From assembly GCA_026993355.1 (NCBI GenBank), contig JALWTX010000001.1, positions 1-64,000 on the forward strand: 64,000 bases of DNA. Reading direction: 5' to 3'. Each line of letters begins with the position of its first letter. Positions within the stretch are counted from its first letter, which is position 1. This DNA is from Flavobacteriales bacterium (GTDB lineage Bacteria; Bacteroidota; Bacteroidia; Flavobacteriales; Flavobacteriaceae). This document shows positions 27,294-61,903 of the stretch, piece by piece. The notes below the pieces were generated by a model that worked only from the letters and a program-made list of their open reading frames with translations, was not told the DNA's origin and searched no databases. Both the position numbers and the translations under genes were made by a program.

Positions 27294-28232
27294 ATGAAAA
27301 AATTAGTTATCATTCTACTACTCTCATTAGGTTTTTCTTTAAAAGGACAAAATATTTTGGGGATTGATGTCTCTCACCACCAAAACAGCGTAAATTGGAC
27401 ATTGGTGTATAACGATGGAAAAGTTTTTGCTTTTTGCAAAGCTACGGAAGGCCGCACTTACCAAGATCCTAATTTTAACACTTATATGGTCAACGGAAAA
27501 AATGCAGGCCTGTTAATGGGTGCATATCATTTTGCCCGTCCCGATAATAATACTGCTACTCAAGAAGCCAATAATTTTCTTACACATGCGCAAAATTTTA
27601 TTGGCGATGACTATTTGCCACCGGTATTAGATGTAGAAGATCCACCAAATGGACATTTAGACCAACTATATACTGCTACACAATTAACTAATTGGGTGCA
27701 AACATGGCTAACTGAAGTGGAAAATCAAACCGGTATCAAGCCTATTATTTACACTAATGCGCATTATGCCGCTTATTTAAAACCTTCATTAAACACTTAC
27801 GGCTTATGGATTGCCAATCCGGGAACCAGTCCTTCTACACCGCCCACCAATATTGGCAATTGGCAAACATGGCTCTTTAAACAATATGATTGGTACGGAA
27901 ATGTCAACGGCATAAATGGCAACGTCGACTTAAATGTATTTAATGGAACGGCAAACGACTTGTATAATTTGACACATACTAATGGCATAGAGCAATGGCA
28001 GAACTATTTACATATTTACCCTAATCCTGCTCGAAATAATTTGTATGTCGATAATCAATCTGCTTTTAGATTAGATAAAATTGAAATCCGGGATATGCAA
28101 GGACGCTTATTATATGATCAAAAATATAAAGGTAAAGCCTTAAACATTCAAAAATTAAAACCGGGCATATACATTCTGCAAGTTAGATTATCCAATGGGC
28201 ATTTTCTTAGCAAACGATTTATAAAAAAATAG
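27294..28232 (+). CDS. GH25 family lysozyme with T9SS type A sorting domain
   Basis: ILGIDVSHHQNSVNW, AFCKATEGRTYQDPNF, LDVEDPP; C-terminal IYPNPARNNLYV...MQGRLLY...LKPGIYILQV...KRFIKK. Confidence 0.93.
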   Translation: MKKLVIILLLSLGFSLKGQNILGIDVSHHQNSVNWTLVYNDGKVFAFCKATEGRTYQDPNFNTYMVNGKNAGLLMGAYHFARPDNNTATQEANNFLTHAQNFIGDDYLPPVLDVEDPPNGHLDQLYTATQLTNWVQTWLTEVENQTGIKPIIYTNAHYAAYLKPSLNTYGLWIANPGTSPSTPPTNIGNWQTWLFKQYDWYGNVNGINGNVDLNVFNGTANDLYNLTHTNGIEQWQNYLHIYPNPARNNLYVDNQSAFRLDKIEIRDMQGRLLYDQKYKGKALNIQKLKPGIYILQVRLSNGHFLSKRFIKK

Positions 28233-37137: not shown

Positions 37138-37445
37138 GCATATGGTCAATTATAAAGGCAGATTATTTAACCAACGAAAATGCCGCCAAAAACTGGAGTT
37201 TTATTTTAATGTTGGTTATCATGGGGCTCAGTATCATCAATTTGTCACATTTGGCTGATGCTAAAGTAAAAAAAATAGTCAAACTAAATAAAGAAGTTAA
37301 AGCTTTACGTTCTGAATATGTGGAACTTAAAGCAAAAGTCATCAAACAAAAAATGGTGACCAATGTCTATGAACGGTTAAAAAACGAAGGCTTTGTTTTG
37401 CCTAAAAAACAACCCATAAAGATTAAATTTAAAGAACAAAAATGA
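37134..37445 (+). CDS. FtsL-like cell division protein
   Basis: 103 aa, single TM plus coiled coil between rsmH and ftsI. Confidence 0.85.
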   Translation: MSIWSIIKADYLTNENAAKNWSFILMLVIMGLSIINLSHLADAKVKKIVKLNKEVKALRSEYVELKAKVIKQKMVTNVYERLKNEGFVLPKKQPIKIKFKEQK

Positions 37446-39403
37446 ATCGCGAAGAAATAAATATTACCAAAAGAAGCGGGATTGTATTCAGCCTGCTGTT
37501 CTTCTTTGCTTTGCTTATTGTCGCAAAGTTGATTCATATTCAATATATAGAAGGGAACAAATACCGCGCGTTAGCCCAAAAATATACGCTTAAAGAATTC
37601 AAAATTAAAGCAAACCGCGGCAATATATATGCGGGTGATGGTAGTTTATTGGCTACATCTGTACCAAAATACGACATTGCCTTTGATCCGACAGCCCCAT
37701 CAGATCAAAACTTTAACCGGTATATTGATGTCCTTTGCCAAAAACTCTCAAGGCAAACCGGAAAACCGGCCGAAAAATTTAAAAGAACTTTTGCCTCGGC
37801 CCGTAAACATAACCGTAAATATATAAAGATATTGAAAGGTGTTGATTATACTACCTATCAAAAAGTTAAAAAATACCCTTTGTTTAAATTGGGAGTTAAC
37901 AAAGGAGGTTTTATTGCTGAACTGCATACGAAGCGGGCTTATCCTTTAGGCAATATTTTAAAAAGAACCATAGGTTTTGATCACGGCAAAGGGAACAGCG
38001 CCGGTATAGAAGGGACTTACAGCAGTTATTTACGTGGAAAGGATGGAATGCAAAAGAAACAAAAAATAAAATATGGCGTTTGGAAACCACTAAGTGACAT
38101 AAATGATATTGAACCACAAGATGGTTATGATATAGTCACAAATATCGATTTAGATATGCAAAGTATGGCACATTATACTTTGCTCAACCAATTAAAAAAA
38201 TTTGAAGCAGAGCATGGCAGTTTGGTTATAATGGATGTTAAAACCGGGGCTATTAAAGCCATGGTAAATTTAGGACGGACGGCGGACGGCACTTACAAAG
38301 AACGCCGGAATTATGCCGTTTTCGAAACACATGAACCCGGTTCAACCTTTAAATTATTCTCTATCATGGCACTGTTAGAAGACAAACGAGTCAAACCCTC
38401 AGACATAGTTGATACAGGGAACGGTCTTTATAAAATCTATAACAAAAATGTGAGGGATGCCCATAGACATGGCTTAGGCAAACTTAGTGTTCAACAAGTT
38501 TTTGAAAAAAGCTCAAATGTCGGCGTTGTTAAATTGGTTTATAAAAATTACAAGGACAATCCGCAAGCTTTTGTCAACAGACTTTACAATTTCGGTTTGC
38601 ACGAAAAAGTACATATAGACATAAAAGGCGAAGGGCAGCCTTATATTCCCGATCCGAAAGATAAAAAATGGAGCGGCATCTCACTCCCTTGGATGGCTTA
38701 TGGCTACGGCGTTGAAATGACCGACATTCAGATTTTGTCTTATTACAATGCGATAGCCAATAACGGAAAAATGATGAAGCCATACTTGGTCAATAAAATT
38801 AAATCCTTCGATCATACCATAAAAGACTTTAACCCAAGAATATTAAACAGTTCTATTGCATCCGGCCCAACAATACATCAAATGCAAAAAATGCTGAGAG
38901 GCGTGGTCACAGAAGGAACAGCTACTAATATTAATAGTCCATTTGTAAAAATAGCCGGTAAAACAGGGACCGCACAAACAGAATATTGGAAAGGCAAGGG
39001 GCAATATATTGCCTCATTTGTCGGTTATTTCCCGGCAGATGAGCCTAAATATTCCATGATTGTGGTTGTGCATAAACCTAATCCCGAAAAAGGTTATTAT
39101 GGCAATATTGTAGCCGCACCGGTATTTAAAACAATGGCAGAATATATTTATGGCAGGATGCCCAAAAATATAAAATTGGCCGCTTTAAATTCGAAAACAG
39201 CTAAAAAAACCGAACAAATTGCAGAGAAATACAAAACCATAATGCCCGATTTAAAGGGATTGCCCTCTAAAGATGCGCTCTACATTTTAGAAAACATGGG
39301 TTTGAAAGTGCATTTAAATGGTCATGGCAACGTTATAAAACAATCGATACCCCGTGGACAAAAAATCAGAAAAAATCAATTGGTTGAACTTAAATTAACA
39401 TGA
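37442..39403 (+). CDS. ftsI: Penicillin-binding protein (FtsI-type) with PASTA domain
   Basis: HEPGSTFKLFS (SxxK), EKSSNVG (SxN), AGKTGTAQ (KTG), C-terminal MPDLKGLPSKDALYILENMGLKV. Confidence 0.94.
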   Translation: MNREEINITKRSGIVFSLLFFFALLIVAKLIHIQYIEGNKYRALAQKYTLKEFKIKANRGNIYAGDGSLLATSVPKYDIAFDPTAPSDQNFNRYIDVLCQKLSRQTGKPAEKFKRTFASARKHNRKYIKILKGVDYTTYQKVKKYPLFKLGVNKGGFIAELHTKRAYPLGNILKRTIGFDHGKGNSAGIEGTYSSYLRGKDGMQKKQKIKYGVWKPLSDINDIEPQDGYDIVTNIDLDMQSMAHYTLLNQLKKFEAEHGSLVIMDVKTGAIKAMVNLGRTADGTYKERRNYAVFETHEPGSTFKLFSIMALLEDKRVKPSDIVDTGNGLYKIYNKNVRDAHRHGLGKLSVQQVFEKSSNVGVVKLVYKNYKDNPQAFVNRLYNFGLHEKVHIDIKGEGQPYIPDPKDKKWSGISLPWMAYGYGVEMTDIQILSYYNAIANNGKMMKPYLVNKIKSFDHTIKDFNPRILNSSIASGPTIHQMQKMLRGVVTEGTATNINSPFVKIAGKTGTAQTEYWKGKGQYIASFVGYFPADEPKYSMIVVVHKPNPEKGYYGNIVAAPVFKTMAEYIYGRMPKNIKLAALNSKTAKKTEQIAEKYKTIMPDLKGLPSKDALYILENMGLKVHLNGHGNVIKQSIPRGQKIRKNQLVELKLT

Positions 39404-40890
39404 AAAAATCATTCGACATATTAAAAGATATCGAAGTTCTTAAAAGTGAAGGCGATAAAAACCGCCCTCTGAATCATATTCAATATGACTCAAGAAAAGT
39501 TGTGCCCGGTGACTTGTTTATAGCTTTAGAAGGCGTACAAACTGATGGTCATCAATACATTGAAAAAGCTATTGAAAAAGGTGCTAAAACCATTATCGTA
39601 GAAAAATGGCAAGAAAACCTACCGGCTGATATTACCCAAATTAAAGTGCCAAACACACATGCAGCATTAGCCATCATGGCGTCAAACTACTATAATCGTC
39701 CTTCCGCTAAATTAAAACTAATAGGTATAACCGGCACCAATGGCAAAACCACAACAGCAAGCCTGTCTTATCAGCTTTTTAAAAAAGCAGGTTATAAAGC
39801 CGGATTACTGTCAACCGTAAAAATTTTGGTTGACGATCAAACTTATCCGGCAACTCATACCACGCCCGACCCACTGATGATTAACTATTATTTAAATAAA
39901 ATGGTTAAAGCCGGCGTAACACACGCCTTTATGGAAGTCAGCTCGCATGGAATAGACCAACACCGTATTGTGGGATTAGATTTTGACGGTGCTGTTTTCA
40001 CCAACTTGACTCATGACCACTTGGATTATCATAAAACCTTTATCCAATACCGTGATACCAAAAAACAATTTTTTAATCAATTGAAAAAAGAAGCATTTGC
40101 CTTGGTTAATGCCGATGATAAAAACGGTCTGTTTATGCTGCAAAATACCGCAGCACGCAAACTTACATATGCCCTGAAAAATCCGGCTGATTACAAAGCC
40201 AAAATATTGGAACAAAATTTCTCAGGCATGTTACTTTCTATCAACAATATGGATGTTTGGGTACGCTTAGTGGGCTTATTTAATGCCTATAATATCTTAG
40301 CTGTTTTTGCCATTGCCGACCAACTTGGGACAGAAGCTTTTGAAAGTTTGCAAATCATTAGTCAATTGGAAAGTGTTGATGGCCGGTTTGAACTTATTTT
40401 ATCGCCAGAAGGTAAAATTGCCATAGTTGATTATGCTCATACACCCGATGCTTTAGAAAATGTGTTGAAAACAATCAACCGTATTCGCCCTAAAAATCAA
40501 GAAAAACTAATCACCGTTGTAGGAGCAGGTGGCAACCGCGACAAAACCAAAAGGCCGGAAATGGCTGCCGTTGCTGCCAAACTCAGTGACAGTGTCATAT
40601 TTACCTCCGACAATCCGCGTAATGAAAATCCGGAAACGATTATAGATGACATGGAAAAGGGTGTACCGGCTGAATATTACCGGAAAACCTTGCGTATTAC
40701 CGATAGACGGCAAGCCATTAGAGCTGCCGGCAGTTTAGCCAATCCGGGCGACATTATTTTAGTTGCCGGCAAAGGACATGAAGACTATCAAATCGTCAAT
40801 GACATAAAATCTCATTTTGATGATAGAGAAGAAATAAAAAAAGTTTTCGGTCTTACCGAAACCAAAATTTCACCTAAAAAACCAAACTAA
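39400..40890 (+). CDS. murE: UDP-N-acetylmuramoyl-L-alanyl-D-glutamate--2,6-diaminopimelate ligase
   Basis: [36 protein letters not shown] (meso-DAP DNPR motif); full length. Confidence 0.95.
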
Positions 40891-42107
40891 TGTTATATTA
40901 TTTTTTTCAACATATATGGCCTGATTTTCCGGGTGCCGGTTTGTTTAATTATCTCTCTTTTAGAGCTGGCATGTCCTTTATTACCGCACTCTTGTTTTCG
41001 TTATTGGTGGGAAAAAGAATCATCAAAATTTTACGAAATATGCAAATTGGCGAAACGGTACGCGATTTAGGTTTGGAAGGTCAAAAATCTAAAGAAGGAA
41101 CACCGACAATGGGCGGTATAATTATTATTTTGGCCACCCTAATTCCTGTTTTATTATTTAATGACCTGAGCAATATCTATGTGCAACTCTTATTGATCAC
41201 TCTTTTGTGGATGGGCCTTATAGGTTTTACCGATGATTATATCAAAGTCATCAAAAAAAATAAAGAAGGTTTGGCCGGCAAATTTAAAATATTGGGACAA
41301 ATTATCTTGGGAATAGTTGTGGGTACAGTGATGCTTGTCAACCAAAACGTAACTATCCGGACTGAAGATTTTTCGGCTCAAACCAAAGTTCATAAAAAAT
41401 TGGGTGAAAATTTTAAACCGGCAGAAAAATCCTTAAAAACTACTATTCCATTGATTAAAAATAATGAATTCAATTATCAATCAATTTTGAATGCTGTTAA
41501 TCATAATTGGGTAAAATATACCGGTATTTTATTTATTCTGATCGTTATTTTCATCATAACTGCTGTGTCAAATGCCGCAAATTTAACCGATGGCATCGAT
41601 GGTTTAGCAGCCGGAACCTCGGCGATCATCATTTTAGCATTAGCTTTGCTTGCCTGGATTTCAGGAAACATACTTATTGCCGATTATTTGAATATTATGT
41701 ACATCCCAAACATCGGCGAAGTCTCGGTATTTATTAGTGCATTTGCCGGCGCACTCATTGGTTTTTTATGGTTTAATGCATATCCGGCACAAGTTTTTAT
41801 GGGTGATACCGGCAGCTTAACCATTGGAGCCATCATTGCAGTAGTCGCCTTATTTATCCGTAAAGAATTACTATTGCCTTTATTAGCTGGTATTTTTGTT
41901 ATAGAAAATGCCTCTGTCATTATGCAACGGTTTTGGTTTAAATATACCAAAAAGAAATATGGAACCGGGAGAAGAGTTTTCTTAATGGCCCCCATTCATC
42001 ATCACTTTCAAAAAAAAGGTTGGCATGAAAATAAAATTGTCGTACGCTTTTGGATTATGGGAATCATTTTAGCGGCAATCAGTATTATAAGTTTGAAAAC
42101 AAGATAA
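40890..42107 (+). CDS. mraY: Phospho-N-acetylmuramoyl-pentapeptide-transferase
   Basis: [46 protein letters not shown]. Confidence 0.96.
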
Positions 42108-42124
42108 CACAAAAAAACAACGAG

Positions 42125-42646
42125 ATGCATACACAAACCGAACATAAAAATTTAGCTGCAATGACAGCCAAATTATTACAAAAAAGAAAACAGGCGTTTA
42201 AAAAACCCTTTCAGTCTTTCACCAATGTGGCACACAGGCTTGAGTCAGTTTACACTAAAAACGGGATTGTTTTCATCAACGATTCTAAAGCCGAAAACAT
42301 TAATGCCACTTATTTTGCCTTAGAAACCATACAAAAACCGGTTGTTTGGATTGCAGGTGGTGAAGATGCCGGTGCAGACTATTGGGAATTAATGGCTTTG
42401 GTCCGTCAGAAAGTAAAAGCCATTATTATGATTGGTCAAGACAATGAACGATTATTTCATATTTTTTCTCCGGTAATAGCTCAAATATTTGAGGCCGAAA
42501 ATATGGAAGAGGCGGTCAAACTTGCTTATAAAAACAGCCAGCCCGGGACACAAGTTTTGATGTCACCGGCTAGTAAACCGGACGAGCGTTTTATAGACTA
42601 TATGGAACGCGGAGAACAATTTAGAGAAGCGGTTAATAATTTATAA
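42125..42646 (+). CDS. MurD C-terminal ligase domain only (lacks UDP-binding and ATPase domains)
   Basis: 174 aa: SFTNVAHRLESVYTKNGIVFINDSKAENINATYFALETIQKPVVWIAGGEDAGADY...SPASKPDERFIDYMERGEQF matches MurD domain 3; no P-loop; position between mraY and ftsW. Confidence 0.85.
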   Translation: MHTQTEHKNLAAMTAKLLQKRKQAFKKPFQSFTNVAHRLESVYTKNGIVFINDSKAENINATYFALETIQKPVVWIAGGEDAGADYWELMALVRQKVKAIIMIGQDNERLFHIFSPVIAQIFEAENMEEAVKLAYKNSQPGTQVLMSPASKPDERFIDYMERGEQFREAVNNL

Positions 42647-42651
42647 TTAAA

Positions 42652-43839
42652 ATGAATAGATTTATCAAAGATTTAGGCGGTGATCGTCAGTTATGGGTCT
42701 ACACCATTCTACTGATGCTTTTTTCCTTTTGGATTGTCTATAGTGCCAGTAGCAATTTGGCAAATGTATATGGCAAAACATCTCCCTTTTTCTTTGGGAT
42801 AAAACATTTTATACATGTCTCAATCGGTTTTCTAATCATTTATTTTACCCATAAAATCACCCCCAAATATTTTTCGCATGTATCACGAATTGCGATGCCG
42901 GTCATAGTTTTGGTATTATTTTTCACCATTACACGCGGCTTAACTATGGGCGGAGCTAATGCCAGCCGTTGGATACACTTACCCGGCTTAGGCAGTGTAC
43001 AACCTTCGACTGTGGCATTTGTCTTATTAATGATGTTTACAGCCCGCTTTTTTGGTAAAACTAATTTTGCTAAAATGAGTTTTGCCGAGAGTTTCAAAAA
43101 TTATTGGATATGGGTTTTTGCTGTTGTTGGTTTAATATTACCGGCTAACCTGTCAACGGCTGCCTTGATTTTTACCATGGTAATTATTATCAGTATCATA
43201 GCCGGCTATCCGTATAAAGAATTGTTAAAAGTATTTGGGATTGGGCTGTTAGGCATAATTATGATGATTTTGGTTTTGAAAGCTTTTCCCGGACGATTCT
43301 CAAACCGTTTAGATACGTGGCAAAGTAGAATTGAAAGTTATTTTACATCAGATAAAGGAAAAGCAACCGGGATAAATGACAAAAATTATCAACAAGTACA
43401 AGCCAAAATAGCTATTGCTAAAGGAGGTTTATTGGGGTTCAGACCCGGTAAAAGTGTTCAAAAGAACTTTCTACCACAATCAGTTTCAGACTTTATTTAT
43501 GCTATCATAATCGAAGAATACAGCCTAACGGGCGGACTAATTATTCTGTTCGTATATCTTTTATTAGGCTTACGGATGTTTTTTATTGCCAAAAGAACCC
43601 CCGATCGGTATTATAAGTTATTGGTATTGGCCGTTGGGCTACCCATTATAGTCCAAGCACTGGCCAATATGGCTGTAGCTGTAGGCATATTTCCGGTTAC
43701 AGGTCAGCCTCTTCCATTGCTCAGCTCCGGTGGAACGGCTATTTGGATGAGTAGTTTTGCGATAGGTATTATTTTAAGTATTAGTCGATATACAGAGGTC
43801 AAAGAAAAGAAAGATTTAGATAATTTTATAAATGATTAA
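42652..43839 (+). CDS. ftsW: Lipid II polymerase FtsW (SEDS family)
   Basis: Ten-TM SEDS protein; GKSVQKNFLPQSVSDFIYAIIIEEYSL; GQPLPLLSSGGTA. Confidence 0.94.
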   Translation: MNRFIKDLGGDRQLWVYTILLMLFSFWIVYSASSNLANVYGKTSPFFFGIKHFIHVSIGFLIIYFTHKITPKYFSHVSRIAMPVIVLVLFFTITRGLTMGGANASRWIHLPGLGSVQPSTVAFVLLMMFTARFFGKTNFAKMSFAESFKNYWIWVFAVVGLILPANLSTAALIFTMVIIISIIAGYPYKELLKVFGIGLLGIIMMILVLKAFPGRFSNRLDTWQSRIESYFTSDKGKATGINDKNYQQVQAKIAIAKGGLLGFRPGKSVQKNFLPQSVSDFIYAIIIEEYSLTGGLIILFVYLLLGLRMFFIAKRTPDRYYKLLVLAVGLPIIVQALANMAVAVGIFPVTGQPLPLLSSGGTAIWMSSFAIGIILSISRYTEVKEKKDLDNFIND

Positions 43840-44942
43840 TGAGGAACGAAAAACAACATATTAAGGTAATCATTAGCGGCGGCGGAACCGGTGGGCATAT
43901 TTTTCCTGCTCTGGCTATAGCTGATGAAATAAAAAAGCGTAAGCCTCAAGCGGAAATCTTGTTTATTGGGGCCAAAGATCGTATGGAAATGGAAAAAGTG
44001 CCGGCGCACGGCTATCCTATAAAAGGTTTATGGATATCAGGTATAAACAGACAGCATAAATGGCGCAACTGGCAATTTCCGCTCCAAATTTTGAGTAGCC
44101 TGATAAAAGCCAAAAAAATTGTTAAAAATTTTAAACCCGATGTGGTTATCGGAACCGGCGGCTTTGCCAGTGGCCCCATATTATATGCGGCACAGCAAAA
44201 AAACATTCCGACTTTTATACAAGAACAAAATTCATATCCGGGTATTACCAACAAAATTTTGAGCAAAAAAGCACAAAAAATATTTACGGCTTATGATCAT
44301 CTTGAGCGTTTTTTTGCATCCGATAAAATAATAAAAACCGGCAATCCTGTTAGAGAAGATTTGCATAAGCCACTCAACGATGCCAAGAAATCGCGGCAAT
44401 TTTTTGGGTTAAAACCCGATAAAAAAACAATTTTAGTTTTAGGTGGTAGTTTAGGTGCCCGACCGATAAACGAAGCTATAAAAGAAAAACTACCCTCTCT
44501 TTTAGCTAATGGCTATCAATTAATATGGCAAACCGGACCTAAAGATTTTGATAGATATAAAGATCTGGGAAATGAACAAGTAAAAGTCGTCCCTTTCATT
44601 AAAAACATGCACGAGGCCTATGCTGCTGCCGACATGATTATCTCACGTGCCGGAGCCGGAACTATTTCAGAATTGGCCATGGTAGGCAAACCGGTAGTGC
44701 TGGTGCCTTCGCCATATGTAGCAGAAGACCACCAAACCAAAAATGCACAAGCATTGGTTGAAAATAAAGCCGCCATCCTTGTACCCGAAAAAAAATTAAA
44801 GGAAAAACTTTGCCCGGCTGTCAAAGAAATTTTTGGACAACCCGGAAAAGCAAATGAATTAAGTCAAAATCTAAAAAAAATGGCACAACCAAAGGCAACC
44901 CAAAAAATAGTAGACGAAATTTTTAAAACAATAAACTTGTAA
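43839..44942 (+). CDS. murG: UDP-N-acetylglucosamine--lipid I transferase
   Basis: ISGGGTGGHIFPALAIADE; SRAGAGTISELAMVGKPVVLVPSP. Confidence 0.96.
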   Translation: MRNEKQHIKVIISGGGTGGHIFPALAIADEIKKRKPQAEILFIGAKDRMEMEKVPAHGYPIKGLWISGINRQHKWRNWQFPLQILSSLIKAKKIVKNFKPDVVIGTGGFASGPILYAAQQKNIPTFIQEQNSYPGITNKILSKKAQKIFTAYDHLERFFASDKIIKTGNPVREDLHKPLNDAKKSRQFFGLKPDKKTILVLGGSLGARPINEAIKEKLPSLLANGYQLIWQTGPKDFDRYKDLGNEQVKVVPFIKNMHEAYAAADMIISRAGAGTISELAMVGKPVVLVPSPYVAEDHQTKNAQALVENKAAILVPEKKLKEKLCPAVKEIFGQPGKANELSQNLKKMAQPKATQKIVDEIFKTINL

Positions 44943-45641
44943 ATGAAAAAAAAGTTTTACATAATCGGCCTGTTATTTTTTCTTATTCTGACTATCGGTT
45001 TGGGCAGTATATTTGATCGACTTATAGAAGATGAACCGGTCAGAATTAAAAATGTCTATGTCTTTCCGTTAGACAAAACTTTTATTTTACCTAAAGAAGT
45101 AGCCAAACTGATCCCTATTAAAGGAAAAACTTACAAAAATATCGATATAAACGAAATAGAGAAAAAATTAGAAAAAAACAATTTTATCCAAAATGCCGAA
45201 GTGTATAAAGATTTAAACGGTCGATTAACAGCCAAAATAAAACAATATCAACCCATTGCCAGGGTGGTAAATAACAGCAACTCATACTACTTAGATAAAA
45301 AGGTCGATAAAAAACCGCTTTCAACCCATTTTACTGAAAATGTTGTCTTGGTTTTTGGCAAAATCCAAGACAAAGAAAAAAATAACCTTGTTGAACTTAT
45401 TAAAACTATTAACCACGATAAAATATTAAAAAACATTGTGACTGAAATACACATCAAAAATAATCTTATAGAAGTAAAAACCGATTTGTTAGCTGCCGAT
45501 ATGCTAATTGACCTAAATACTGACTTAAAAAAGCAATTAATTAAATTGAAAGCTATTTATGCTTATTTAACCAAAAAACATCAAACACAAAAATATCACC
45601 ATATCGATTTAAGATATGCCCGACAAGCCGTTTGTAAATAA
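44943..45641 (+). CDS. ftsQ: Cell division protein FtsQ/DivIB
   Basis: Single N-terminal TM, POTRA-like region, position before ftsA; start codon directly follows murG stop (TAA ATG). Confidence 0.85.
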   Translation: MKKKFYIIGLLFFLILTIGLGSIFDRLIEDEPVRIKNVYVFPLDKTFILPKEVAKLIPIKGKTYKNIDINEIEKKLEKNNFIQNAEVYKDLNGRLTAKIKQYQPIARVVNNSNSYYLDKKVDKKPLSTHFTENVVLVFGKIQDKEKNNLVELIKTINHDKILKNIVTEIHIKNNLIEVKTDLLAADMLIDLNTDLKKQLIKLKAIYAYLTKKHQTQKYHHIDLRYARQAVCK

Positions 45642-45661: not shown

Positions 45662-47089
45662 ATGAAACGCATGAACACTGACAGCATACCAGATTACTTT
45701 AAACAGGAAGAAGCCCCCTCCCCTTTTAGAAAACAAGACGAACGTTTTGAAGTCGTTGGCTTGGATATTGGCACCACCAAAGTTGTAGCCATAATCGGCC
45801 GGAAAAATCAATATGGCAAAATTGAAATATTAGGCTATGGCAAAGCTAGCAATAAAGGCGTGAAAAATGGCGTGGTCGTTAATTTAACCGAAACCGTAAA
45901 AGCCATCAATGAAGCGGTCAGAAAAGCCGAATACAATGCCAAAATACAGATCAAAAAAGTTATAGTAGGTATTGCAGGGCAACACATTCGCAGCATACAA
46001 ACCAGCGAATATATAATGCGCGAAAAACCGGATGAAATTATAAGCCATGAAGAAGTTGACAAATTGATCAATCAAGTAAAACGTATTCATGTCGAACCGG
46101 GCGAAAAAATTATACATGCTTTACCCCAAGAGTTTAAAGTTGATGATGAAGGGAACATCCCCGATATTCCCATAGGGATGGCCGGCACCCGGTTAGAAGC
46201 CAATTTTCATGTGGTGGTCGGTAAAATTGCTGCCATCCAAAATCTGGTTCGTTGTGTAGAAATGGCTAATCTTGAGGTAGCTGACATTACCTTAGAACCT
46301 TTGGCATCGGCAGAAGCGGTTTTGGTAGATGAAGAGCGTGAAGGCGGAACCGTTTTGATAGATATTGGTGGCGGTACAACAGATATTGCTATTTTTAAAA
46401 ATAATATTATACGACACACAGCCATCATCCCGTACGGGGGAAATATTATCACCAAAGATATTGCCAATGGGATTTATGTCTTAGAACGTAATGCCGAAAG
46501 AATAAAAGTTAAATTCGGGTCGGCATGGCCGGCTGAAGCCAGCGACATGGATGTCGTTTCTATTCATGGCTTACCCGGCAGACCACCGGTCGAAATCAGT
46601 TTTAAAAGTATTGCACGTATTATTAAAGCACGTGTCGAAGAAATCATTTTAATGGTCGATGCCGAAATAAGACAGTATCAAGAAATGAATAATGATCCGG
46701 TTTTACTTGGCGGGATTGTACTGACCGGCGGCGGTTCTGAGTTAAAACATCTACCACAACTGGTTAATTTAATAACCGGACATTATACGCGGCTTGGCCT
46801 CCCCGGACAACATTTGGCAGGTGGCACCGAGCGTGACCTGATCAGTCCAAAGTATGCCACCGCAATCGGTTTGCTAATAAAAGGCTTAGCAAACAAAAAA
46901 AATTATGAATATTATGAATATGAAGATGAAAACAATGCGACACAAAAAAATATTGATAAAGAAGAGGACATGGCATCCGTTTCTACTGACCCTGACAACA
47001 AAACGGACCAATCTACCAATCAAAAGATAAAAAAACAGCGCTTTTCAATATTCAATACTATAATGAAATTTATTGACAAGTTAGAATAA
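45662..47089 (+). CDS. ftsA: Cell division protein FtsA
   Basis: VVGLDIGTTKVVAIIG, GGTVLIDIGGGTTDIAIF, GGIVLTGGGSELKHLPQL. Confidence 0.96.
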   Translation: MKRMNTDSIPDYFKQEEAPSPFRKQDERFEVVGLDIGTTKVVAIIGRKNQYGKIEILGYGKASNKGVKNGVVVNLTETVKAINEAVRKAEYNAKIQIKKVIVGIAGQHIRSIQTSEYIMREKPDEIISHEEVDKLINQVKRIHVEPGEKIIHALPQEFKVDDEGNIPDIPIGMAGTRLEANFHVVVGKIAAIQNLVRCVEMANLEVADITLEPLASAEAVLVDEEREGGTVLIDIGGGTTDIAIFKNNIIRHTAIIPYGGNIITKDIANGIYVLERNAERIKVKFGSAWPAEASDMDVVSIHGLPGRPPVEISFKSIARIIKARVEEIILMVDAEIRQYQEMNNDPVLLGGIVLTGGGSELKHLPQLVNLITGHYTRLGLPGQHLAGGTERDLISPKYATAIGLLIKGLANKKNYEYYEYEDENNATQKNIDKEEDMASVSTDPDNKTDQSTNQKIKKQRFSIFNTIMKFIDKLE

Positions 47090-55307: not shown

Positions 55308-58100
55308 ATGACAGACCTAAACAAAAAATTTGATCCGGAAAAACACATTTTGATAGAAGAAGCAACTGAAAACAACCTTAAAAATGTCAGCTTACTTATA
55401 CCTCGTAATAAATTGGTTGTTATTACGGGTGTTTCAGGTAGTGGCAAATCCAGTTTGGCCTATGACACCTTATATGCTGAAGGACAACGCCGTTACATCG
55501 AAAGTTTATCTTCATATGCACGTCAATTTTTAGGCAAAATACAAAAACCAAAAGTTAAAAGTATCAAAGGGATTGCACCTGCTATTGCCATAAAACAAAA
55601 AGTAAACACAGCCAATCCACGCTCAACGGTCGGTACTGCAACAGAAATCTATGATTATTTAAAACTCTTATTCGCCCGTATCGGCAAAACCATTTCACCG
55701 GTGTCGGGACAAGAAGTCAAAAAACATAGTGTCTCAGATGTCATTAACTTTTTAAAGGAACAAAAAACCGGCAGCCGTTGGATTTTATCGGTTGATTTAA
55801 AAGCGCATCACGGTAAAGACTTAAAAACCATTATCCGTATTTTGGAACAACAAGGCTATGCCCGTGTCAAAATCCAGGACCAATTGGTATCAATTTCCGA
55901 GGTTTTGCGTTTAAAAAAAATGCCTGAGAATATGGCTTTGGTCATTGACCGTATTCAACTTAAAGAGGATCCTGATTATTGGAACCGTTTGGCAGATTCC
56001 ATTCAAAAAGCTTTTTTTGAAGGACATGGACAATTAAGCCTAACGGATTGGCAGACACAAAAAACTTACCAATTTTCGCAAAATTTCAATTTAGACGGCC
56101 TTGATTTTCCCGAACCCAGCATACATTTATTTAGTTTTAACACGCCTTATGGCGCTTGCCATGTTTGTGACGGATTTGGCAGCATTTTGGGTATTGACCC
56201 GCAAAAAGTTATACCCAATACCACCTTATCGGTATATGAAGATGCCATTGCTTGTTGGAGAGGCAGCAGCTTAAAATATTACAAAGACCAGTTGTTAGAA
56301 CACGCCCACAAATTCAATTTTCCTGTCCATAAACCTTGGTTTGAATTAAGCCCTGAAGAACAAGCACTTGTTTGGAATGGCAACCAATATTTCACCGGAA
56401 TAAATGATTTCTTTAAAGAATTAGAACAAAAAAGTTACAAAATACAAAACCGTGTATTATTGGCCCGATACCGTGGCAAAACCACTTGTCCGTCTTGCAA
56501 AGGCAAGCGTTTGCGTCAAGAAGCATTTTATGTACAAGTAGGCGGTAAAAATATAGGAGATTTAATTGATTTGCCAATCGAAGAACTCCAAGAATTTTTT
56601 AAAAAATTAAACCTCTCCGAAGCAGAACAAGAAATAGCCAAACGCATTTTATATGAAATTAATAGCCGTATCACATTTTTAATAAATGTCGGTTTAGGCT
56701 ATTTAACCTTAAATCGCCCTTCAAATACCTTATCCGGTGGCGAAACGCAACGAATCAATTTGGCTACCTCGCTAGGCAGTAGTCTTATTGGGTCCATTTA
56801 TGTTTTGGATGAACCCAGTATCGGCTTACACCCAAAAGATACCGAACGGCTTACCGGTGTACTGCAAAATCTGCGCGATTTGGGTAATACAGTTATCGTC
56901 GTCGAACATGATGAAGACATTATGAAAGCTGCCGATTACATCATTGACATGGGCCCTGAAGCCGGTACTTTCGGGGGTGAAGTGGTAGCAGCAGGAAATT
57001 ATCAAAATATTCTGAAAAGCACTTCATTAACGGCCAAATACCTTAATGGTCAAGAAACTATCGCCCTCCCGGCTTTACGCCGTCAACCTAAAGATTTTAT
57101 CAAAATAACCGGCGCAAGACAACATAATTTAAAAAACATAAATGTTAAATTTCCACTACATAGCCTGTCGGTAATTACAGGCGTCTCCGGAAGTGGCAAA
57201 AGCACCTTGGCTTCAGAAATTATTTATCCTGCTATCCATAAAAAACTTTTTGATCACGGGCCAAAGATAGGTGAAATGACTGCTTTGGAAGGTAGCATTG
57301 ACCGGTTGGAACATGTTGAATACCTCGATCAAAATCCAATTGGACGTAGTAGCCGATCCAATCCGGTAACTTACATCAAGGCTTATGATGATATTCGCAA
57401 CTTATTCGCCGCACAACCACTGGCCAAAATAAAACATTTAAAACCCAAGCATTTTAGTTTTAATGTCGAAGGCGGGCGTTGCGAACATTGTAAAGGTGAA
57501 GGAACGGTGACCATTGAAATGCAATTTATGGCAGATGTACATCTCACTTGCGAAGTATGTGGTGGAAAACGCTTTAAAGACGAAATTTTAGAAGTGAAAT
57601 ATCAAGGCAAAAGCATTCATGATATTTTGGACATGCGAGTCGATGAAGCCATTGATTTTTTCAAAATTCACAAACAAGATAAAATTGTCCAAAAACTTAA
57701 ACCCTTACAAGATGTCGGTTTGGGCTATGTAAGTTTAGGCCAATCCTCTTCCACCCTTTCTGGAGGCGAGGCACAACGGATAAAACTGGCTTCTTTTTTG
57801 GTAAAAGGAAATCGTCAGCCCAAAACTTTATTTATTTTTGATGAACCCACTACCGGTTTACATTTTCATGATATCAAAAAATTATTAAACTCGTTTAATG
57901 CTTTAATAGAAAACGGTCACAGTATATTGGTTATAGAACATAATATGGAAATAATTAAATCGGCCGACTGGCTTATCGATTTAGGGCCCGAAGGCGGAAA
58001 AAAAGGAGGTGAATTGGTTTTTGAAGGCACGCCCGAAGCACTGGTTAAAGACGGCAAATCATTATTAACACCTTATCTGAAAGAGAAATTAAAAATCTAA
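55308..58100 (+). CDS. uvrA: Excinuclease ABC subunit UvrA
   Basis: VITGVSGSGKSSLAYDTLYAEGQRRYIESLSSYARQFL; two ABC cassettes and CxxC zinc modules. Confidence 0.97.
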   Translation: MTDLNKKFDPEKHILIEEATENNLKNVSLLIPRNKLVVITGVSGSGKSSLAYDTLYAEGQRRYIESLSSYARQFLGKIQKPKVKSIKGIAPAIAIKQKVNTANPRSTVGTATEIYDYLKLLFARIGKTISPVSGQEVKKHSVSDVINFLKEQKTGSRWILSVDLKAHHGKDLKTIIRILEQQGYARVKIQDQLVSISEVLRLKKMPENMALVIDRIQLKEDPDYWNRLADSIQKAFFEGHGQLSLTDWQTQKTYQFSQNFNLDGLDFPEPSIHLFSFNTPYGACHVCDGFGSILGIDPQKVIPNTTLSVYEDAIACWRGSSLKYYKDQLLEHAHKFNFPVHKPWFELSPEEQALVWNGNQYFTGINDFFKELEQKSYKIQNRVLLARYRGKTTCPSCKGKRLRQEAFYVQVGGKNIGDLIDLPIEELQEFFKKLNLSEAEQEIAKRILYEINSRITFLINVGLGYLTLNRPSNTLSGGETQRINLATSLGSSLIGSIYVLDEPSIGLHPKDTERLTGVLQNLRDLGNTVIVVEHDEDIMKAADYIIDMGPEAGTFGGEVVAAGNYQNILKSTSLTAKYLNGQETIALPALRRQPKDFIKITGARQHNLKNINVKFPLHSLSVITGVSGSGKSTLASEIIYPAIHKKLFDHGPKIGEMTALEGSIDRLEHVEYLDQNPIGRSSRSNPVTYIKAYDDIRNLFAAQPLAKIKHLKPKHFSFNVEGGRCEHCKGEGTVTIEMQFMADVHLTCEVCGGKRFKDEILEVKYQGKSIHDILDMRVDEAIDFFKIHKQDKIVQKLKPLQDVGLGYVSLGQSSSTLSGGEAQRIKLASFLVKGNRQPKTLFIFDEPTTGLHFHDIKKLLNSFNALIENGHSILVIEHNMEIIKSADWLIDLGPEGGKKGGELVFEGTPEALVKDGKSLLTPYLKEKLKI

Positions 58101-59236
58101 ATTTGCCGGTAATCATTCCCTTCTATCAATACCTGCGCCGGAAGCGATTGCAGATTATATTGTGACGCCATTACATAACCATAGGCACCAGCATTTTCGA
58201 TCATCAAAATGTCGTCTTTTTGTACAGGACTTAACTCCCGGTTATAAGCAAAGGTGTCTTCTTCACACAATACGCCTACCACATCATATGTTTGGGTAGG
58301 TACAGAAGTATTTGATAAGTTAACTATTTGATGATAAGCATCATAATACATCGGACGAATTAAGTGATGAAAACCGGAATTTACACCGATAAATTTTTTG
58401 TTATAACCTTGTTTTACCACATTAACTTTGACTAATAGCACACCGGCATTGCTAACGATGAATTTGCCCGGTTCAAATTTTAATTGAATATCTCTATTGA
58501 AGGATTTTAAACTTTTTTGCAAAAAACCGGCATAAGCCTGTAGATCGATCTCCGTATCCGAAGGATGATATTTGACTTTAAATCCGCTGCCTAAATCTAA
58601 ATATTTAAGGTCCGGAAAATGTTTAGAAAAATCCATTAAAACCTCTGCCGAACGGGCTAAATCATGCCAAGTTTTTACATCAGAACCGGTATGCAAATGC
58701 AATGAATCGACCTTTAACCCGGCGTTTAAATATTTTTTAATCAGATTTAATTGGGTAACCGGAATCCCAAATTTAGAATTATAATGTGCTGTGGCTATTT
58801 TTTGATTGCCGGCAATCTTTGTATCGGGATTAATCCGCAAACCAACGGCTTTATGAGGAAAACTTTTCAAAATAAAATCAAAGTATTCGACAGCACCGAT
58901 ATGAACATGAATATCATGGCTAAAAGCAAAAGCCAAATCAGCCTCGGAGGGACAACTCGGGGTAAAAATAATCTGATTCTTGTCAAAACCCAAGCTTAAG
59001 GCATGTTTGATTTCGTTAACAGAAACCGCATCTACTCCTAAATGATTTTCCTTGATAATTTTTAAAATTTCTGGATTTTCATTAGCTTTCATTGCATAAT
59101 GCAATTGATAAGGCAAATTTTTAAAAGCTGTTTTCAAACGATTTATTTGTGCGACAATTCTATCCTTATCATACACATAAACCGGTGTGCCGACATTATT
59201 AGCAATCGCCAAAAGAAGTTTGTGCTCAAATGACAT
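58097..59236 (-). CDS. lysA: Diaminopimelate decarboxylase
   Basis: LHYAMKANENPEILK PLP-Lys motif, LHLHTGSDV, FEPGKFIV, CEEDTFAYNREL. Confidence 0.92.
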   Translation of the reverse strand: MSFEHKLLLAIANNVGTPVYVYDKDRIVAQINRLKTAFKNLPYQLHYAMKANENPEILKIIKENHLGVDAVSVNEIKHALSLGFDKNQIIFTPSCPSEADLAFAFSHDIHVHIGAVEYFDFILKSFPHKAVGLRINPDTKIAGNQKIATAHYNSKFGIPVTQLNLIKKYLNAGLKVDSLHLHTGSDVKTWHDLARSAEVLMDFSKHFPDLKYLDLGSGFKVKYHPSDTEIDLQAYAGFLQKSLKSFNRDIQLKFEPGKFIVSNAGVLLVKVNVVKQGYNKKFIGVNSGFHHLIRPMYYDAYHQIVNLSNTSVPTQTYDVVGVLCEEDTFAYNRELSPVQKDDILMIENAGAYGYVMASQYNLQSLPAQVLIEGNDYRQI

Positions 59237-60658: not shown

Positions 60659-61903
60659 ATGAAAAAGAATTTTATTTTACTTGCTCTTTTTCTGCTTAGC
60701 TTAGTAGCTTGTCAAACAAACAAACCCAAAAACAAAAGTTTAAGCGAAAAACCCAAAGATAGTATCGTTAAAGAAATTGCCAAGATTTATGATTATCCCC
60801 GGAAACAATATATTATTGACAAAGATACGGTTGCACCAAATGATACTTTTGGTAAAATTTTAAGTCAATTTCATTTACCTTATGCTTCAATTTATAAAAT
60901 AACACAGAAAATAAAAGACAGTTTTGATGTTCGAAATATAAAAACCGGGCGTCCTTATGTGGTTCTTAGCCGTCAAGATTCATTAGACAGTTTACCACGT
61001 CCTAAAGTTTTTATTTATCAGCAAGATCCCATCCATTATACTGTTATCGATTTTCAAGACTCTATCAAAGTTTGGCACAAAACCAAAAAAATTACCAAAA
61101 AACGGCAAAAGGCTTATGTAAAAATTGAAAAATCACTCTACCAAGACATTGCCGACCATCATTTGAGCCCAAAATTGGCTATGGAACTAAATAATATTTA
61201 TGCCTGGACAGTAGATTTTTTTCATTTAAATAAAGGCGATTCATTTAAGGTTATATATGATGATATTTATATAGATGATACAACCTATGTGGGTATTGGT
61301 CCCATTCATGCTGCTGAATTTAACTATGGCGGCAGAGATTTTTACGCTTTTCGTTATCCCACTGATTCTATACATCATATTTTTGACTATTTTGATGAGA
61401 AAGGAAGGACCTTACGCAAACAATTTTTAAAAGCACCGTTAAAATTCGGAAGAATCAGTTCGCGATACAATTTGCACCGGTTTATTAAATATTATGGCCG
61501 TGTGAAACCACATTTAGGGACTGATTTTGCCGCCCCCACCGGCACGCCTATTATGTCAACCGCCAATGGAACGGTGATTAAAAAAGGTTATACCTCCGGC
61601 AATGGCAATTATATAAAAATAAGGCACAATGCCACTTATACAACCCAATATTTGCATATGAGCCGTTTTGCCAAAGGTATTCATGTCGGCAGCGTGGTTA
61701 AACAAGGTGAAATTATTGGTTATGTGGGTGCAACCGGACATGCTTCGGGTCCGCACGTCTGTTACAGATTTTGGAAAAATGGTCGTCAAGTGGATGCTTT
61801 AAAAGAAAAAATGCCGCCGGCAAAACCTATCGATAGCACTCTACTTCCTCAATATTTACAGTATATAAAACCTTATAAACAACAATTAGACAGCCTGCAA
61901 TGA
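60659..61903 (+). CDS. M23 family metallopeptidase (lipoprotein)
   Basis: Lipobox LVACQT; HLGTDFAAPTGTPIMSTANGTV, GNYIKIRHNATYTTQYLHMS, GHASGPHVCYRF. Confidence 0.93.
   Translation: MKKNFILLALFLLSLVACQTNKPKNKSLSEKPKDSIVKEIAKIYDYPRKQYIIDKDTVAPNDTFGKILSQFHLPYASIYKITQKIKDSFDVRNIKTGRPYVVLSRQDSLDSLPRPKVFIYQQDPIHYTVIDFQDSIKVWHKTKKITKKRQKAYVKIEKSLYQDIADHHLSPKLAMELNNIYAWTVDFFHLNKGDSFKVIYDDIYIDDTTYVGIGPIHAAEFNYGGRDFYAFRYPTDSIHHIFDYFDEKGRTLRKQFLKAPLKFGRISSRYNLHRFIKYYGRVKPHLGTDFAAPTGTPIMSTANGTVIKKGYTSGNGNYIKIRHNATYTTQYLHMSRFAKGIHVGSVVKQGEIIGYVGATGHASGPHVCYRFWKNGRQVDALKEKMPPAKPIDSTLLPQYLQYIKPYKQQLDSLQ

Follow-up and report, generated by a model that had tools for sequence, protein, structure and literature searches.

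How can a bacterium that keeps an otherwise ordinary division and cell wall (dcw) gene cluster build the peptide stem of its peptidoglycan when the genes for MurC and a complete MurD are missing? Both enzymes count as universal and indispensable for making peptidoglycan, and both are being pursued as targets for antibiotics. The question is raised by a stretch of 64,000 nucleotides from a Flavobacteriales bacterium (the window; bases 1-64000 of contig C1, JALWTX010000001.1, in assembly GCA_026993355.1). Here, the stop codon of murG (TAA, 44940-44942) directly abuts the ATG of ftsQ at 44943 (codons ttg TAA, then ATG), leaving no space for murC between the two genes, and the cluster reads ftsI-murE-mraY-murD fragment-ftsW-murG-ftsQ-ftsA-ftsZ. 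Across the genus to which this genome belongs, MurC and catalytic MurD have been lost, and an Mpl-type murein-peptide ligase appears to be the one ligase left that could load a peptide onto UDP-N-acetylmuramic acid (UDP-MurNAc). The genes and the junction concerned are as follows.

37442..39403, + strand: ftsI/penicillin-binding protein (PBP) gene (profile match).
39400..40890, + strand: murE, intact, with the DNPR motif of the diaminopimelate (DAP) type (NF001126, 623.7 bits against a cut-off of 373; alignment).
40890..42107, + strand: mraY (PF00953, PF10555).
42125..42646, + strand: standalone C-terminal domain of MurD (murD-C, 173 amino acids), its D-glutamate (D-Glu) contacts replaced (PF02875).
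42652..43839, + strand: ftsW (best match TIGR02614, 227.8 bits, below the cut-off of 337.5; cluster position).
43839..44942, + strand: murG, intact (TIGR01133, 340 bits against a cut-off of 250).
44940..44945, + strand: junction of murG stop and ftsQ start, the place where murC is missing (ends of the open reading frames; conserved junction).
44943..45641, + strand: ftsQ (weak model match; position and gene order conserved in the genus).
45662..47089, + strand: ftsA (TIGR01174, 361.9 bits).

The original prediction had described the adjacency of murG and ftsQ, a truncated murD, intact murG and murE, and the lack of any full MurC/MurD-type ligase within the 64 kilobases (kb). All of this is borne out by the reading-frame limits (44942/44943), by a murD profile match confined to the C-terminal part of the model, by murG and murE scores over their profile cut-offs, and by the occurrence of the Mur-ligase central domain (PF08245) in a single protein of the window, MurE. 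The whole genome (G000; 2,209,331 bases in 22 contigs, 99.35% complete, 0.01% contaminated) was then covered by profile searches, with sequence stretches taken around genes of interest. No protein in it exceeded the cut-off of the MurC model TIGR01082 (335.1 bits), the best match (247.8 bits) being an Mpl-type protein on contig C15, and a full MurD was likewise absent. PF08245 is present in four proteins, namely MurE in the window, MurF on C8 (379 bits to TIGR01143), the Mpl-type protein (C15, 34-36 kb) and FolC (C15, 85 kb), and is absent from murD-C; a Ddl was also found. The UDP-MurNAc-type ligases of this genome are thus limited to MurE, MurF and the Mpl-type enzyme, and the four-protein census rules out both relocation of MurC or MurD and a fusion of the two. 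The three readings originally offered, relocated copies, a MurC-MurD fusion elsewhere and an altered peptide-stem pathway, are accordingly reduced to the last, the other two being excluded by the whole-genome searches together with the genus-wide pattern. That earlier reading had overlooked the conservation and selection of murD-C, the loss of dapB with lysA kept, and the position of the Mpl-type enzyme as the sole ligase left that could act on UDP-MurNAc.

Of 60 relatives, 45 have a MurC match over the cut-off; the remaining 15 comprise the 13 genomes of the genus plus two from elsewhere in the order (G044 and G057). MurC is present in each of the 24 further members of the family that were searched. 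The best MurC-model matches in the genus, all to the Mpl-type protein, reach 231-249 bits, compared with 340-394 bits for true MurC in relatives. In the six named, independently assembled genus loci with both flanks complete, 715-1041 nucleotides separate murG from ftsA and 547-784 separate mraY from ftsW; the corresponding distances in 69 other Flavobacteriia loci are no shorter than 2028 and 1337, respectively. The comparison of dcw order in sister genomes thus reveals the same closed murC and murD gaps in 6/6 loci. A misassembly at the murG/ftsQ junction was considered as well, and is ruled out by the absence of MurC from 13/13 genus genomes and by the closed syntenic junctions. Among 296 Bacteroidia genomes surveyed across the class, each with a completeness of 95% or more, about 11 (~4%, G000 included) lacked a strong MurC match; most of these are single genomes with MurC-bearing congeners and probably reflect assembly gaps, and since the misses are mostly isolated, clade-wide loss of MurC is rare. 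The genus consists of uncultured Flavobacteriaceae metagenome-assembled genomes (named records). One sample label, 4281-140, comes from work on deposits at deep-sea hydrothermal vents (PMC9793634), and labels S143-S145, A1, A3 and T11 probably denote the same setting, so that, judging in part from sample labels, the genus appears to be mostly of deep-sea-vent origin.

The two further genomes without MurC belong to another family of the order (1.7 Mb, 97-99% complete) and, according to profile searches, also lack MurD, MurI, DapB and DapF, with Mpl, MurE and MurF retained. Their dcw clusters (L196, L197) are otherwise ordinary, with murC and murD missing and no MurD fragment left. These parallel losses support a common logic in which Mpl can stand in for MurC and MurD.

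The remnant of murD in the genus (173-174 amino acids) matches positions 280-440 of the 441 in TIGR01087 (150.6 bits against a cut-off of 212) and lacks the N-terminal and ATPase domains. Twelve of the 13 genus genomes carry some form of murD, truncated in eleven. The twelfth, in G007, is full-length and foreign-looking (L023, G007:C303, 427 amino acids, 32% identity to the fragment, unlike Flavobacteriia), and its contig is probably, if not provably, foreign or a contaminant, that assembly being 83% complete with 5% contamination. Wherever both flanks are readable, murD-C sits between mraY and ftsW. Its ratio of nonsynonymous to synonymous polymorphism (pN/pS) of 0.28 equals that of murG (0.27) and lies within the range of 0.14-0.28 covering murE (0.18), mraY, ftsW, murG, ftsA and murD-C, values that count only as a gene-to-gene comparison, synonymous sites being near saturation. 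All six genes are under purifying selection, and murD-C is a conserved gene, not debris.

An AlphaFold2 model of murD-C (mean predicted local distance difference test 76.8, predicted template modelling score 0.69; moderate confidence) finds its best PDB matches among MurD C-terminal domains (8dp2, 31% identity, E 7.5e-10). Compared with MurD of 71 other Flavobacteriia, murD-C retains the equivalents of R302, D317 and K319, a numbering that we take to follow E. coli MurD. The D-Glu contacts T321, K348 and S415 (PMC3527612), conserved in 71/71 of those other proteins, are in contrast replaced in each of 10/10 genus sequences, T321 by E and S415 by P, with K348 lost. Neighbouring residues have also become fixed, with A changed to K and the F equivalent to L416 changed to D. 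On these grounds, murD-C alone is predicted to be incapable of acting as a D-Glu ligase and may now bind a different ligand or act as a scaffold.

Mpl is normally a recycling enzyme. It attaches a preformed peptide to UDP-MurNAc (PMC3060825). The C15 ligase shares 57% identity with Mpl of MurC-containing family members versus 22% with MurC, and in a phylogenetic tree all Mpl-type sequences group together (support 0.82), apart from MurC. The Mpl-specific loop (DEYLSSPIDPRPKF in the genus ligase versus DEYDSAFFDKRSKF in PaMpl) corresponds to a gap in MurC; between the ATPase motif DEY and KF..Y, the loop DEYLSSPIDPRPKFLWY aligns with DEYDSAFFDKRSKFVHY of PaMpl and with a gap in four MurC chains. 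In addition, mpl adjoins radC in G000, as it does in the MurC-containing G019. The genus proteins (161-187 bits) do not reach the cut-off of the Mpl model TIGR01081 (388.7 bits), and the Mpl of MurC-containing G019 attains only 181.5 bits, which indicates that this model does not cover the tested Bacteroidota branch. The sole MurC-like ligase of the genus is, by its sequence features, of the Mpl type. It carries the genus-fixed substitutions V192K, D131N, A136S, S303D and L272M, and its stem branch is long (0.53, a value measured for Mpl alone). Apparent convergent substitutions in both MurC-less lineages (HAPSK, AGSHGKT, WDHMN) did not hold against 27 reference Mpl proteins of the order, only the weak L272M being shared. 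In G000, the genes for two POT/MFS transporters lie only a few kilobases away from mpl (L107 9912-13385).

Losses extend to the supply of the third residue. DapB is absent from 8/8 genus genomes and from both genomes of the second lineage and present in 5/5 family controls; in L162, L167, L168 and L178, DUF5683 and lepB flank a gap where dapB normally lies, as it does in L205. The operon in question reads parA-parB-DUF5683-(dapB)-lepB-wbqC, with dapB missing and a dipeptide epimerase gene at its end (L162 2306-7811, L167, L168, L178). A DAP decarboxylase gene is nevertheless kept in the window:

58097..59236, - strand: lysA, diaminopimelate decarboxylase (TIGR01048, 316.8 bits against a cut-off of 297.9; closest PDB chains are DAP decarboxylases).

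LysA also occurs in G009 and G011 (311.8 bits to TIGR01048 in L028), and its retention without DapB implies that DAP comes from outside. MurI with both catalytic cysteines is present in 5/7 genus genomes. The dipeptide epimerase, found in 7/7 genus genomes adjoining wbqC-lepB, is closest to the Bacteroides thetaiotaomicron enzyme, matches 3IJI over its full length (E 3.7e-65) and aligns with it at KIKLG, VDAN, EQPLP, ADES and VKLVK, preserving the catalytic lysines, DxN, ExP and DES; it scores below the NCBIfam equivalog cut-offs. DapF, over its cut-off and with its cysteines kept, adjoins a cysteine-synthase-like gene in seven loci. The latter is conserved at 76-82% identity in 8/13 genomes, its nearest other family proteins reaching 43-45%, and both genes are jointly absent from G001, G004, G005 and G006. 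This two-gene unit (L188 5518-7501; equivalents in L189-L193 and L195), patchy within the genus, might hypothetically represent a candidate lanthionine pathway. A lipoprotein of the M15 D-Ala-D-Ala dipeptidase type is encoded near the pair (L188 2913-3611).

Enzymes that could release peptides from murein are encoded at two further places in the window.

27294..28232, + strand: GH25 muramidase with a type-IX-secretion sorting domain, predicted to be exported (PF01183, 140.5 bits; PF18962, 46.9 bits; TIGR04183, 44.1 bits).
60659..61903, + strand: lipoprotein of the M23 murein endopeptidase type (PF01551; MepM/ShyC-type models).

A GH25 muramidase with the same kind of secretion tail is also present in G011 (L232 8910-9860), making this enzyme a candidate for attacking the walls of other bacteria.

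The explanation that we favour, by a little more than an even chance, is that Mpl now provides the entry step into peptidoglycan synthesis, attaching preformed peptides salvaged from the murein of other bacteria. With MurC, catalytic MurD and DapB lost, the first part of the stem would no longer be built residue by residue, and Mpl, as the sole ligase left for UDP-MurNAc, would join L-Ala-gamma-D-Glu-mDAP (meso-DAP) and/or L-Ala-D-Glu to it. MurE would add the third residue where a dipeptide had been attached, MurF and Ddl would add D-Ala-D-Ala, and MraY, MurG, FtsW and the PBPs would then act as usual. The peptides would derive mainly from the murein of neighbours, digested by the exported GH25 muramidase and murein endopeptidases, and peptide transporters would import the products, with LysA, the dipeptide epimerase and MurI using imported DAP, L-Ala-D-Glu and D-Glu. 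Meanwhile, murD-C would probably still serve for binding or as a scaffold where MraY, FtsW and MurG act. The gene losses also point to a putative obligate auxotrophy for murein peptides or DAP.

Several observations weigh against salvage as the whole answer. MurE would be idle if tripeptide alone were used, so that dipeptide entry would form at least part of the route, and the joint retention of MurE and MurI suggests use of a dipeptide and not of tripeptide alone, leaving room for an epimerase-based route or an unknown D-Glu ligase. MurI in particular looks as though D-Glu were still being made, and the DapF/cysteine-synthase-like pair of eight genomes resembles a de novo supply of the third residue. 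Moreover, the genus Mpl-type ligase scores higher on the MurC model than on the Mpl model, any peptide specificity of Mpl in the Bacteroidota is putative, and no uptake system emerged as common to the genus, the POT/MFS pair being absent from the stretches taken around mpl in G003 and G009. Part of this evidence would fit a route independent of foreign murein, in which the epimerase converts L-Ala-L-Glu from protein breakdown or import, Mpl attaches L-Ala-D-Glu as a whole, and MurE adds DAP or meso-lanthionine, the latter supplied by the cysteine-synthase-like enzyme and DapF. The epimerase is found in 2/5 relatives, against all seven genus genomes, where it stands directly behind lepB-wbqC in an operon without dapB and has motifs intact relative to 3IJI. 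MurE and MurF are kept in both MurC-less lineages, the DapF/cysteine-synthase-like unit is formed in seven loci and jointly absent from four genomes, and Fusobacterium nucleatum uses lanthionine without DAP synthesis, its DapF homologue having proved to be a histidine racemase (PMC11602996). This route has a modest chance of being correct, given that no BacD/LAL-type ATP-grasp dipeptide ligase was found in the genome (three weak ATP-grasp matches, one of them the ddl locus), MurI would be kept though unneeded, the DapF/cysteine-synthase pair is missing from ~5/13 genomes and hence no general solution, and LysA without DapB speaks for imported DAP. A fully different stem chemistry, combining a dipeptide whose D-centre is made by the epimerase instead of glutamate racemase plus MurD, an essential Mpl attaching it, meso-lanthionine as third residue in several species, and a murD-C with new ligand and function, seems rather unlikely.

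Step-wise synthesis with replaced enzymes would instead make the Mpl-type protein an L-Ala ligase and assign the addition of MurI's D-Glu to an unrecognised non-Mur ligase, perhaps aided by murD-C. The intact MurI cysteines, the higher score on the MurC model, the five genus-fixed substitutions of the Mpl-type ligase and the retained R302, D317 and K319 equivalents are consistent with such a scheme, which we nonetheless consider rather unlikely, as no candidate for the D-Glu ligase is known, none of the murD-C sequences compared retains any of the three side-chain contacts with D-Glu, and the second lineage has no MurI. It is very improbable that the wall pathway is simply decaying and no normal sacculus is made: two central ligases and dapB have indeed been lost, but selection acts on the remaining cluster genes, and MurF, Ddl and an FtsI-type PBP are retained. 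The notion that the assemblies simply failed to capture the stretches carrying murC and murD can appeal to the draft state of the genomes (22 contigs for G000, at least 140 for the others), yet is close to negligible in view of the absence of MurC from every genus genome, the closed junctions of all six independent loci and the low frequency of MurC misses among near-complete genomes of the class.

A search of the open-access literature, which was not exhaustive, turned up no published case in which MurC and MurD are lost while Mpl is kept. The losses described here build on known phenomena, a recycling ligase and precursor auxotrophy, and the chance that they reflect a new route to the stem peptide is a real one. 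If this holds, a genus with the remaining wall machinery but without MurC and MurD would show that the first steps of stem synthesis can be bypassed via a recycling ligase, and would offer an example from nature of how bacteria might be insensitive to inhibitors of MurC and MurD. Each component has a recognizable counterpart. Like the enzymes of E. coli and Psychrobacter, the genus Mpl belongs to the same orthologous group and bears the Mpl-specific loop; in those organisms, however, Mpl is accessory to MurC-MurD-MurE, whereas here it would be the sole essential entry enzyme. Likewise, murD-C is homologous to the C-terminal domain of MurD but lacks the N-terminal and ATPase domains and has its D-Glu contacts replaced, so that, with its rebuilt pocket, it may offer a clean example of a catalytic enzyme pared down to a single domain that now serves a different end. 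The epimerase resembles L-Ala-D/L-Glu epimerases along its entire length, but their known role is catabolic recycling, and the genus gene has been relocated into the parAB-lepB-wbqC operon. With the lanthionine-containing peptidoglycan of F. nucleatum (PMC11602996), the genus shares a lack of DAP synthesis, a cysteine-synthase-family enzyme and a DapF homologue; its two genes, in contrast, are adjacent, MurC and MurD are lost too, and lanthionine is suggested by the gene pairing alone. The closest ecological parallel is Tannerella forsythia (PMC7670621), another member of the Bacteroidota, which lacks MurA and MurB and relies on the wall precursors of its neighbours: there the salvaged compound is the sugar MurNAc, whereas in the present genus it would be the stem peptide, a dependence on neighbours comparable in kind to the MurNAc auxotrophy of Tannerella.
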